DNA from: Oscillospiraceae bacterium
GTDB taxonomy: Bacteria; Bacillota; Clostridia; Oscillospirales; Oscillospiraceae
Assembly: GCA_015067465.1 (NCBI GenBank)
Contig: SVMK01000001.1
Location: 1 to 64,000 of the forward strand
Direction of reading: 5' to 3'
Length of the DNA: 64,000 bases
In this document: positions 4,054 through 62,246 of the stretch, piece after piece
Position numbering within the stretch: position 1 is the stretch's first letter
Layout of the letters: each line of letters opens with the position of its first letter
The notes under the pieces: model-generated
The model's input: only the letters and a program-made list of their open reading frames with translations
Database searches by the model: none
Told to the model about the DNA's origin: nothing
Made by a program: the position numbers and the translations under genes

Positions 4054-4430
4054 TGGAGAACAACAATATCGGAAATCTGATGGATATTACAATGAGCAAA
4101 ATGCGTGAGATGGTGGATGTGGACACGGTTGTCGGCTCTCCCATCACCACGCCGGACGGCATCACGGTGATCCCCGTCAGCCGCGTCAGCTACGCTTTTG
4201 CTTCCGGCGGCAGCGATTTCCACGCAAAGGAAAAGCCCGGCTTCGGCGGCGGAAACGGCGCCGGCGTGAAGATCGAGCCGATCGGTTTTCTTGTGGTGAA
4301 AGACGGCAATGTTCGCATGATGAGCATCACGCCGCCCGCTGTGAACACTGTGGACCGCATCATTGAGAAAGCACCTGAACTGATTGATACCTTTGAGGAA
4401 TTCCTCAGCAAGCAGAAAAAGGATAAGTAA
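4050..4430 (+). CDS. gerW: GerW/YtfJ family sporulation protein
   Basis: MDITMSKMREMVDVDTVVGSPITTPDGITVIPVSRVSYAFASGGSDF. Confidence 0.93.
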   Translation: MMENNNIGNLMDITMSKMREMVDVDTVVGSPITTPDGITVIPVSRVSYAFASGGSDFHAKEKPGFGGGNGAGVKIEPIGFLVVKDGNVRMMSITPPAVNTVDRIIEKAPELIDTFEEFLSKQKKDK

Positions 4431-4498
4431 GGCATAATTGCAGCCGCATCGGCCAATAATAAGCACTACCCAAACGATCATCAGGGTGGTGCTTTATT

Positions 4499-12099: not shown

Positions 12100-12834
12100 A
12101 TGTCCACAATGTCGAAAATTTCCGATACAATCCGAAAAGCCCACCACAGTTTTTGCACGGTTGTGGTTGTTGCTGCGGGCAATTCCACGCGTATGGGCGA
12201 AGACAAGCTGTTTATGCCGCTGGGCGACAAATGCGTGCTTGCGCAAACGCTGCTTGCGCTCAACGCCAGCGCAACGGTTGATGAGATCATTGTTGCAACC
12301 CGCGAGGACAGACTGCAGGCGGTTGCCGAGCTGCGTGTGCGCTACGGTATCGATAAGCTGGCGAGAGTGGTGCTCGGCGGACAGACGCGCACGGAATCCG
12401 CCCTTGCCGGTGCGAGCGAGGCGAGCCGCCATGCAAAGATTATCTGCATCCACGACGGCGCGCGGCCTTTTGTAACGGACGGCGTGATTGCCGATGCGGT
12501 GCATAATGCCGTGCTCAGCCTTGCCGCAGCGCCGGCACTGCCGATGAAGGACACGCTGAAAACCGCGGTGGACGGTGTGGTAACCGGCACGCCTGACCGC
12601 AGCACGTTTTTCGCTGTGCAAACGCCGCAGGCGTTTCAGGCGGATATTATCAAAGCCGCACTCAGCAGAGCGGTTGCCTGCGGCATCAGCTATTCCGACG
12701 ATTGCGCGGCGGTGGAGGCGATGGGCGTGCCCGTGCATCTGAGCCGGGGCAGCGAAGAGAATATCAAGCTGACCACGCGCGACGATTTGCTGCTGGCGGA
12801 GATCATCCTGAAAAAGAGGGAGGCGGGGCTGTGA
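12100..12834 (+). CDS. ispD: 2-C-methyl-D-erythritol 4-phosphate cytidylyltransferase
   Basis: [37 protein letters not shown]. Confidence 0.95.
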
Positions 12835-13316
12835 GTTCGGAATTTTTCGTCGGACACGGCTACGATGTTCATCAACTGGTTGAAGGCCGAAAGCTCATTA
12901 TCGGCGGCGTGGATATTCCGTATGAAAAAGGCCTGCTCGGCCATTCCGACGCGGATGTGCTGGTTCACGCGGTGATGGATGCGCTGCTGGGCGCTGCGGC
13001 TTTGGGCGACATCGGACAGCATTTTCCCGATCACGATCCGCGCTACAGCGGGGCGGACAGCCTGAAACTGCTCGAGCACGTTTGCGCGCTGCTGCACGAG
13101 CGCGGTTTGCGCATTGGAAATATTGACTGCACCGTGGTGGCGCAGCGGCCGAAGCTTGCGCCGTATCTGGACGAAATGCGCAGCCGTATTGCAGCGGTTT
13201 GCGCGCTGCGCCCCGAGCGTGTTAACGTGAAGGCGACAACGGAAGAACATCTTGGCTTTACCGGCCGGGGTGAAGGCATCGCCGCCCATGCCGTTGCGCT
13301 GATACGCGAAGACTGA
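12831..13316 (+). CDS. ispF: 2-C-methyl-D-erythritol 2,4-cyclodiphosphate synthase (GTG start overlapping ispD stop)
   Basis: [55 protein letters not shown]. Confidence 0.96.
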
Positions 13317-13331
13317 ACCGCAAACAAAACC

Positions 13332-13455
13332 GCCCTTTCCGCATATGATGGGGGTAGCGGAGCGATCCGCAAAAAAACTCAAAGTGTTGTTACCAAAGCA
13401 TGTTATTCCGCGAGCCCGGCTTTGCGGACTATCATGCTTTGTTTGCGGAAGGGGT
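13332..13455 (+). ncRNA. Candidate cis-regulatory structured RNA upstream of DUF3343 gene
   Basis: Hand-drawn fold: 12-bp outer helix 13332-13343/13444-13455 containing the RBS, GNRA hairpin 13357-13370, 9-bp helix 13394-13402/13433-13441 with inner 5-bp stem. Confidence 0.45.
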
Positions 13456-13462
13456 TTGAACT

Positions 13463-13714
13463 ATGCATTATATACTGATGAGCCGCTCGCTCACCAATGC
13501 GCAGAAAGCGGCTCGACGGCTGCAGAATGCGGGGATTTTTGCGGTTGTTGCCAAAGCGCCGCAGAGCGCCAATCCCGGCGGCTGCACTTACGGCGTGAAG
13601 ATCGGGCTGCACAATCTTTCCGGCGCGCTTTCGCGGCTGCAGGCGGACGGTATTTCGGTTGCGAAGGTGCTGCGCGTGACGGATAACGGCGAAGTGGCCG
13701 AGGTGACGGTATGA
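13463..13714 (+). CDS. DUF3343 domain protein (putative Se/S carrier-like)
   Basis: MHYILMSRSLTNAQKAARRLQNAGIFAVVAKAP...GCTYGVKI; adjacent to cysteine desulfurase. Confidence 0.8.
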   Translation: MHYILMSRSLTNAQKAARRLQNAGIFAVVAKAPQSANPGGCTYGVKIGLHNLSGALSRLQADGISVAKVLRVTDNGEVAEVTV

Positions 13715-14832
13715 TCTACCTCGACAGTGCGGCAACGAGTTTGTATAAGCCGGAAACGGTGCAGTGCGCCGTGATGGAGGCGATCAACACCATGGCGAGT
13801 CCGGGCCGCGGCGTTCATGCGCCGGCAATGCGTGCAGCGGACTGCTGCTATGCCTGCCGTGAAAATCTCGCGGAGCTTTTTCATCTGATGAATCCGGAAA
13901 ACGTTGTGTTCACATTCAATGCCACGCATGCGCTGAATATTGCCATCCGGTCGCTTGTTCGCCGCGGCACGCGCGTTTTGATTTCCGGCTTTGAGCATAA
14001 TTCCGTGACGCGCCCGCTTCATGCGCTGGGCGCAAAAGTTCGCGTGGTGTCCGCGCCGCTGTTTTCTCCGGAAGTGTTTTTGCGTAAAGCGCGGCAGATG
14101 CTGCCGTGGGCAGAGGTTGTTGTCTGCACGCATGTTTCCAATGCGTTTGGCTATATTCTGCCGGTGGAGCGTCTGGCGCGGCTTTGTGCCGGACAGAGAA
14201 AGCCGCTGATCGTGGATGCATCCCAATCCGCCGGCGTGCTGGATATCAATTTTCCGGCGCTGGGTGCGGATTTTGTCGCCATGCCGGGGCACAAGGGGCT
14301 GCTCGGCCCCCAGGGCACGGGTGTATTATTATGTAAAAATGATGCTTTGCCGTTGCTATATGGTGGAAGCGGTTCCGCGAGCCGGGAGCAGAAAATGCCG
14401 GATTTTTTGCCGGATCGTCTGGAAGCGGGCACGCATAATGTCGCGGGCATTGCGGGATTGAACGCGGGCGTGGAGTATATTCTTGCCAAAGGCTGCGCCG
14501 AAATCCGCGAGCGGGAGTGCGAGCTTATGCGGCGCTTTGCCGATCGCGTTTCGGATGTGCGGGGCCTGCGTGTTTTCCGGGCGGGAGACGATGCGGTGCA
14601 AAGCGGCGTCTTGTCGGTGCTGCCGGAGAATATCAGCTGCGAAGCCTTTGCCGAAGCGCTCGGCGCACAGGATGTTGCCGTTCGCGCGGGATTGCATTGC
14701 GCACCCTTGGCGCACCGAAGCGCGGGAACGCTGGAGAGCGGAACGGTGCGATTCAGCTTTTCTCCGTTCAATACTGCTTCCCAGATTGACCGCGCTGCGG
14801 AAATTTGCAAAAATATTCTGGAAAAACCCTGA
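13711..14832 (+). CDS. Cysteine desulfurase-family PLP enzyme (aminotransferase class V)
   Basis: MIYLDSAATSLYKPETV; VDASQSAGVLDINFPALGADFVAMPGHKGLLGPQGTGVL; RAGLHCAP. Confidence 0.93.
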   Translation: MIYLDSAATSLYKPETVQCAVMEAINTMASPGRGVHAPAMRAADCCYACRENLAELFHLMNPENVVFTFNATHALNIAIRSLVRRGTRVLISGFEHNSVTRPLHALGAKVRVVSAPLFSPEVFLRKARQMLPWAEVVVCTHVSNAFGYILPVERLARLCAGQRKPLIVDASQSAGVLDINFPALGADFVAMPGHKGLLGPQGTGVLLCKNDALPLLYGGSGSASREQKMPDFLPDRLEAGTHNVAGIAGLNAGVEYILAKGCAEIRERECELMRRFADRVSDVRGLRVFRAGDDAVQSGVLSVLPENISCEAFAEALGAQDVAVRAGLHCAPLAHRSAGTLESGTVRFSFSPFNTASQIDRAAEICKNILEKP

Positions 14833-57874: not shown

Positions 57875-57963
57875 GGAGAGTTACCGAAGTGGTCATAACG
57901 GGGCGGTCTTGAAAACCGTTAGGGCGCAAGTCCACGCGGGTTCGAATCCTGCACTCTCCGCCA
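57875..57963 (+). tRNA. tRNA-Ser, anticodon TGA, CCA encoded
   Basis: GGAGAGT...ACTCTCC acceptor, anticodon loop CTTGAAA, long variable arm, GGTTCGAATCC. Confidence 0.95.
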
Positions 57964-60800: not shown

Positions 60801-60961
60801 GCCCGCCGCAGGCACCGGAGATGCGCGCGGAATATTCCGCCGCTGCCGGCATATGGATTTATTAAATTGTAACCTCGTCCGGAACGGACAAAAAAATACA
60901 GTTCCCGCAGCTCTCCATAACTTAGCTGCGGGTTACGAAGAAAAAGGAGGAGTTATTCCCC

Positions 60962-61024
60962 ATGACTCGGGGTGCGGCAGTGTGGAGACCTGTCGTAAAA
61001 GGCGCGCGGCAATGCCGGCGCTGA
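60962..61024 (+). CDS. Possible 20-aa leader ORF (MTRGAAVWRPVVKGARQCRR)
   Basis: AAAAAGGAGG 11 nt upstream of ATG; sits 40 nt before the msmK-like start. Confidence 0.3.
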   Translation: MTRGAAVWRPVVKGARQCRR

Positions 61025-61064
61025 GGACGCGTATGCGGAGGCTGCGCGTTCGGAGTCGGAAAAT

Positions 61065-62246
61065 ATGGCAACTGTTCAGCTGAAGAATGTTAAGAAGATC
61101 TATCCTGTCTCTGGAGGAACCAAAAAGCTGCGCAAAAACCGCGGCGATGAGGACGAAGAGCGCAAGGTGAACCTGCAGATCACCGACAAGGGTGTGGTTG
61201 CGGTTCAGGAATTCAATCTCGACATTGAAGACAAGGAATTCATCGTGCTTGTCGGCCCGTCCGGCTGCGGCAAATCCACCACCCTGCGCATGGTTGCGGG
61301 TCTGGAAGAGATCACCGAGGGCGAACTCTACATTGACGGCGAACTGATGAACGATGTTGCGCCGAAAGACCGTGACATCGCGATGGTTTTCCAGAACTAT
61401 GCACTTTATCCCCACATGACCGTGTATGAAAACATGGCGTTTTCCCTGAAGCTGCGCAAGGTCAGCAAGGACGAAATCGACAGAAAGGTGCGCGAAGCTG
61501 CCGAGATTCTGGATATTACCCAGTATCTCAACCGCAAGCCCAAGGCACTTTCCGGCGGTCAGCGTCAGCGCGTGGCCATCGGACGTGCGATTGTTCGCGA
61601 TCCCGCCGTGTTCCTGATGGATGAGCCGCTGAGCAACCTTGATGCGAAGCTGCGCAACCAGATGCGTGCGGAGATTCTGAAGCTGCGCGAGCGCATCAAC
61701 ACCACCTTTATCTATGTTACCCATGACCAGACCGAAGCTATGACGCTCGGCGACCGTATTGTGATCATGCGCGACGGTTATATTCAGCAGATCGGCACGC
61801 CCCAGGATGTGTTCAACCATCCCCACAATCTGTTCGTTGCCGGCTTCATCGGCACACCGCAGATGAACTTCTTTGATGCGCAGCTGCTGTGCGAGGGTGA
61901 CCGCTACTTCGTGGAAGTCGGCGGCATCAAGGTGGAATTGAGCGAGGATAAGCAGGTACGCCTGAAGGCCAACGATGTGCAGAGCCAGGCTGTCACGCTG
62001 GGCGTTCGCCCCGAGCACACCGACCTGACCGACAGCGGCGTTCCCGCCAAGATCGACGTTTACGAAATGATGGGCTCTTCCGTCCATCTGCACGTCAATG
62101 CCGAGGGAAAAGACGTTGTTATCATCGTTCCGACCGGCGATATGGCTGTTGAAAACTACAAAATGGGCCAGGATGTGCATTTCAGCTTCCGCGGCAGCAT
62201 TGCGCACGTTTTCTCCAAGGAAACCGAGCGCAACCTTGAATGGTAA
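61065..62246 (+). CDS. MsmK/UgpC-type carbohydrate ABC transporter ATP-binding protein
   Basis: [59 protein letters not shown]-like C-term. Confidence 0.95.
   Translation: MATVQLKNVKKIYPVSGGTKKLRKNRGDEDEERKVNLQITDKGVVAVQEFNLDIEDKEFIVLVGPSGCGKSTTLRMVAGLEEITEGELYIDGELMNDVAPKDRDIAMVFQNYALYPHMTVYENMAFSLKLRKVSKDEIDRKVREAAEILDITQYLNRKPKALSGGQRQRVAIGRAIVRDPAVFLMDEPLSNLDAKLRNQMRAEILKLRERINTTFIYVTHDQTEAMTLGDRIVIMRDGYIQQIGTPQDVFNHPHNLFVAGFIGTPQMNFFDAQLLCEGDRYFVEVGGIKVELSEDKQVRLKANDVQSQAVTLGVRPEHTDLTDSGVPAKIDVYEMMGSSVHLHVNAEGKDVVIIVPTGDMAVENYKMGQDVHFSFRGSIAHVFSKETERNLEW

Follow-up and report, generated by a model that had tools for sequence, protein, structure and literature searches.

The ispF-DUF3343 locus and its folded leader

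The stretch analysed here (the window) comprises 64,000 nucleotides of an Oscillospiraceae genome (contig SVMK01000001.1, positions 1 to 64,000, forward strand). In it, the housekeeping gene ispF is followed by a leader and then by the genes for a DUF3343 protein and a class V cysteine desulfurase-like protein. The features of the locus are as follows.

12831-13316, + strand: ispF, housekeeping gene (from the ORF translation; start codon inferred)
13324-13325, + strand: AC, predicted -35 element of sigma-K type, spaced 16 nt from the -10 element
13332-13343, + strand: 5' arm (anti-RBS) of the long helix, GCCCTTTCCGCA, spanning the promoter spacer and the first two -10 bases
13342-13349, + strand: predicted sigma-K -10 element CATATGAT, CATAnnnT type
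13354-13359, + strand: predicted sigma-K transcription start, about 13356, placed from the -10 position
13357-13370, + strand: GCGGA-GCGA-TCCGC hairpin, seen in the folds of long and truncated RNA alike, at the predicted 5' end of the sigma-K transcript
13394-13441, + strand: internal hairpin CAAAGCATG...CATGCTTTG around TCCGC/GCGGA, likewise seen in the folds of long and truncated RNA
13444-13455, + strand: 3' arm of the long helix, TGCGGAAGGGGT, holding the RBS GGAAGGGG (13447-13454)
13463-13714, + strand: DUF3343 / Se_S_carrier protein, 83 aa, with conserved Cys41 (PF11823, E 3e-9)
13711-14832, + strand: class V cysteine desulfurase-like protein, 373 aa (PF00266, Aminotran_5)

The initial annotation had named the two downstream genes as a DUF3343-desulfurase pair, and the matches to PF11823 (Se_S_carrier, formerly called DUF3343) and Aminotran_5 agree with this. 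The ATG of the desulfurase-like gene overlaps the DUF3343 stop codon. Cys41 is kept in all 159 aligned DUF3343 homologs, and H194-K195 and C330 are invariant in the desulfurase alignment; the nearest model for the desulfurase-like enzyme is TIGR01977 (336 bits, below its cut-off of 377). An ispF-like C-terminus lies upstream of DUF3343 in 116 of 146 homologous loci. Elsewhere in the window, on the + strand, a tRNA gene (57875-57960, Rfam RF00005, 54 bits) and a malK-I cis-regulatory RNA (60895-61070, RF03069, 133 bits) were found.

The long-range complementarity that had been claimed is real: 13332-13343 pairs with 13444-13455 over 12 contiguous positions, two of them G-U, ahead of the ATG at 13463. 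The duplex of the two arms is worth -22.6 kcal/mol, within the best 5% of swapped partners. That the 5' arm runs at its 3' end into the -10-like box CATATGAT had escaped the initial annotation. The 154-nt leader as a whole folds at -57.7 kcal/mol; dinucleotide shuffles reach -42.3 +/- 4.0 (z -3.9), none of the 200 being as stable. Both of the inner hairpins described previously are present in the computed fold. The remark that no U-tract follows holds for the window (GGGGTTTGAAC), where a scan of the leader for intrinsic terminators was empty, with no hairpin followed by a U-run. Many relatives, by contrast, do carry a T-run. Hairpins of the form AAAGCAT...ATGCTTT occur downstream of the predicted start and ahead of the RBS in the window (13394-13441) and in three homologous leaders (L045, L059 and L061); they resemble terminators, yet they are inside the predicted sigma-K transcript.

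No sigma-70-type promoter was found between ispF and the DUF3343 gene in the window. Rfam gave no match to the leader at gathering or at E <= 10. When the leader was compared as DNA with 60 relatives, only short chance matches were obtained, so that it is neither a mobile repeat nor a sequence-conserved RNA.

A predicted sigma-K-type promoter and its sporulation context

DUF3343 was found in 122 of 151 genomes of the same family, and 90 of those loci were read; 79 named loci from GTDB genomes were added, leaving 159-160 non-redundant Oscillospiraceae loci after pooling. In 67 of the 90 homologous leaders, CATAnnAT lies within the final 140 nt, as opposed to 3.0 expected from shuffles, and a -10-like box, CATAnn(A/C)T, is present in 146 of 159. 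Apart from this box, the leaders have almost no sequence in common. When they are anchored on it, conserved columns appear with A at -19 and C at -18/-17, a G preceding the box and A or G following it. AC stands 16-17 nt before the box in 99 of these 146 leaders, and ATA in none. The Flavonifractor plautii leader carries the same element, CAGACGCTCCTCCGGTG-CATACACT-GCACTGAGAGGAGCG.

Controls from the same genomes separate two promoter classes. At spoIIIAA, which we take to be a sigma-E class gene, ATA was found at 16/17 nt in 8 of 12 leaders and AC in none; AC was found in 9 of 13 leaders at dpaA and in 15 of 25 at cotJA, with ATA in neither set. In passages of a study of C. difficile (PMC3789822), dpaA is given as a sigma-K gene, and sigma-E and sigma-K promoters are described as having a common -10 element and distinct -35 elements (ATA versus AC). 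The DUF3343-desulfurase pair is absent from the available part of the sigma-K gene table of that source. The comparison of leaders establishes a conserved promoter element, and its assignment to the sigma-K rather than the sigma-E type is well supported at the sequence level. The pattern AC-N16/17-CATAnnATR is not enriched across the window's own genome (22 occurrences versus 27 of the reversed pattern); a match to it thus does not prove a promoter by itself, whereas conservation at orthologous sites does.

Two further occurrences of the pattern in the window's own genome may be mentioned. On contig C48 (about 81434), AC-N16-CATAAAATG lies 51 nt upstream of the start of a murC-like gene, which might possibly indicate sporulation control of a cell-wall gene. 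In the cotJA leader (contig C19, about 4296-4438), the sigma-K-like -10 CATAAGAT begins a perfect intrinsic terminator, AGATGGTCTGAGATC-CGA-TCTCAGACCATCTTTTTT, with the RBS outside the hairpin. As the -10 opens this terminator, a transcript started inside it would be stripped of most of the 5' arm.

The distribution of DUF3343 points to a link with sporulation. It is present in 114 of 126 SpoIVA-positive genomes versus 8 of 25 SpoIVA-negative ones (p 2e-9, an optimistic value, as the loci are related), and shows no association with SelD (20/24 versus 27/37, p 0.53). The window's genome has SpoIVA over the cut-off and CotJA, the latter preceded by the sigma-K-type pattern; its SpoIIIAA homolog is below the cut-off, and its only SelD match is a paralog-like one of 25 bits (cut-off 125). 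The selenium part of the proposed sulfur/selenium-transfer role is thus weak, since this genome lacks SelD over the cut-off and DUF3343 tracks SpoIVA instead. Matches to the SigK model TIGR02846 fell below the cut-off in all genomes, so SigK cannot be separated here from its paralogs SigE, SigF and SigG, and the YabG model had no matches in the family. A limited literature search turned up no paper linking DUF3343 to sporulation. In nine genomes (G004, G007, G010, G024, G027, G036, G069, G074 and G080), a SelD over the cut-off contains one in-frame TGA; these genes probably encode a selenocysteine-containing SelD.

Pairing between promoter and RBS across relatives

The earlier proposal that the RBS is sequestered gains from comparison with relatives: the long-range helix recurs upstream of homologous genes, and it covaries. 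Averaged across 146 loci, pairing of the promoter arm with the RBS region of its own leader is worth -16.5 kcal/mol, compared with -13.5 for permuted partners; none of 5000 permutations did as well, although the loci are related and the p-values therefore optimistic. For a control arm 48-75 nt farther upstream, the excess was only small (27/5000). Scanned along the leader, pairing strength has its maximum at the promoter, and a helix of at least 11 bp is formed in 16% of loci, as opposed to 0.4% of shuffles and 3% for an upstream arm. Compensatory pair types occur at fixed registers (for example, G-C, T-A and A-T at one position), and the helix is kept with different letters in G002 (locus L041), of the same genus as the window, and in another near relative (L039).

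The architecture varies. The 5' arm and the ATG are separated by anywhere between about 25 and 140 nt, and what lies in this interval differs between genomes. The compact leader L086 reads GCTCCTCTCGTGC-ATACACTG-GCACGAGAGGAGCG-TTTT-act-ATG, a hairpin in which the 8-nt loop ATACACTG is the -10 box, the 3' arm is the RBS and the tail is a T-run. In roughly half of the loci the promoter is accompanied by no more than weak RBS pairing (for example, L040, L042, L043 and L047), so the promoter does not depend on the hairpin.

A T-run of at least 4 within the last 12 nt before the ATG was found in 32 of 59 strong-pairing loci versus 5 of 87 weak ones (p 3e-11), and pairing strength is higher in loci with ispF as the immediate upstream neighbour (p 0.005). 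Across much of the family, then, the hairpin resembles a terminator of ispF whose loop holds a sporulation promoter. As the window has no T-run, RBS masking is the likely effect there.

The cost of opening the RBS averages 8.4 kcal/mol in the read-through RNA versus 5.0 in the RNA from the predicted start (p 6e-10, over 146 related loci); it drops by at least 4 kcal/mol in 51 loci and rises by at least 4 in 2. In the window the drop is modest (7.9 versus 6.0 kcal/mol), since the truncated RNA folds into an alternative, weaker helix. The mean unpaired probability of the RBS (0.25 versus 0.32) is a poor measure; the opening energy separates the two RNAs better.

For other genes, set-level pairing between promoter and RBS was not significant (cotJA, 1223/5000; dpaA, 719/5000; spoIIIAA, 562/5000), and no claim of generality is therefore made. 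Promoter bases are paired to the RBS region in single leaders of cotJA (L154 and L156), dpaA (L281) and spoIIIAA (L303 and L323), with AATCCCCCTTTCAT...ATGGAAGGGGGATT as the pairing in L323.

Interpretation, alternatives and known parallels

We consider it likely that the leader is a promoter of sigma-K, the late mother-cell sporulation factor, nested in an RBS-masking hairpin that silences read-through from ispF. Polymerase arriving from ispD-ispF would copy both arms; in this RNA, 13332-13343 would pair with the RBS at 13444-13455, leaving DUF3343 and the desulfurase untranslated. In those relatives whose 3' arm is followed by a T-run, this hairpin would also terminate ispF transcription. 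Once sigma-K is active, RNA would start within the hairpin, at about 13356, and so lack the 5' arm; formation of the long helix would be precluded, and both genes would be translated. As the 5' arm is promoter DNA that is missing from the sigma-K RNA, the helix is expected only in the ispF read-through RNA. The start site, the silencing and a sporulation role for the gene pair are inferred. The model leaves the hairpins at 13357-13370 and 13394-13441 without explanation.

The initial annotation described the fold as riboswitch-like; a ligand-sensing riboswitch here would respond to a sulfur or selenium metabolite and govern access to the RBS. A stable multi-helix fold that masks the RBS, with sulfur/selenium-transfer genes downstream, is what such a device would look like. 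However, the 159 homologous leaders have neither a conserved aptamer core between the arms nor a constant arm interval, compact relatives such as L086 are plain hairpins with an 8-nt loop, and Rfam offers no match. The sole strongly conserved sequence is the sigma-K promoter, which places the 5' arm upstream of the predicted start; that start is downstream of 13343, an outcome that the annotation itself had named as refuting its proposal. With no sigma-70-type promoter between ispF and the DUF3343 gene either, the folded leader is probably not a riboswitch, and the ligand-sensing version is very improbable. Even less probable is a role of the inverted repeat as a DNA operator bound by SpoIIID, GerE or a similar sporulation regulator; a palindrome does overlap the promoter, but arm letters differ among genomes while pairing is kept, arm spacing varies widely, and strong arms accompany T-runs, as expected for RNA.

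The element might instead be an intrinsic terminator of ispD-ispF that overlaps a sporulation promoter, with RBS masking a by-product. The concentration of T-runs in strong-pairing loci speaks for this, whereas the window helix has no T-run, its terminator scan is empty and 27 of the 59 strong-pairing loci have no T-run either; we regard it as rather unlikely. Since termination and RBS masking both follow from one hairpin, it differs from the nested-promoter model in emphasis. Alternatively, the sigma-K promoter alone might be functional and the inverted repeat in the window fortuitous, as the many loci with a promoter but without strong RBS pairing, and the small predicted effect at the window locus, would allow. 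The stability of the leader fold (z -3.9), the long promoter-RBS helices kept with changed letters in L041 and L039, and the set-level permutation result (0/5000) all stand against chance, making this reading unlikely.

If the nested-promoter model is correct, what appeared to be an orphan riboswitch becomes a testable regulatory device, and a sulfur-transfer pair that is common in abundant uncultured gut bacteria is placed, independently of selenium, under a late sporulation sigma factor. Nesting would also offer a reason for the pyrimidine-rich promoter spacers in these leaders. We tentatively extend the model, with somewhat more doubt than confidence, to an Oscillospiraceae element combining an ispF-operon terminator, an RBS lock and a sigma-K promoter, which might recurrently insulate sporulation genes from read-through, the DUF3343-desulfurase pair being an unlisted late mother-cell sporulation function. 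As a caution, an RBS-masking fold beside a sporulation-type -10 should not be taken for a riboswitch until the start site is known.

In its -35 AC, its -10 CATAnnnT and its 16-17 spacing, the promoter resembles the sigma-K promoters described in the relevant passages of Saujet et al. 2013 (PMC3789822), and the same AC-N16/17-CATAnnnT arrangement is found at cotJA and dpaA in this family. Unlike in known sigma-K promoters, the spacer and -10 here make up a hairpin arm that pairs with the RBS. RBS-sequestering riboswitches and thermosensors likewise hold the RBS in a leader helix; the present leader differs in having no conserved sensing domain and a 5' arm upstream of the predicted start. A limited literature search found no paper on nesting of the T4 kind for sporulation promoters. 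In bacteriophage T4, the genes e (lysozyme), soc, 49 and I-TevI have a late promoter inside an RBS-sequestering hairpin; the RBS is masked in the long early transcripts, whereas those started at the internal promoter lack the 5' arm and are translated (PMC3014915, PMC2988022). The window leader is similar in that a 5' arm of the long transcript pairs with the RBS and the predicted start of the internal promoter is 3' of that arm. It differs in that the promoter is a predicted host sigma-K promoter rather than a phage late promoter, located after ispF in a bacterial chromosome, and in that the hairpins of many relatives carry a T-run and can double as the terminator of the upstream operon. The T4 device of a promoter inside an RBS-masking hairpin would thus now be met in a bacterial chromosome.
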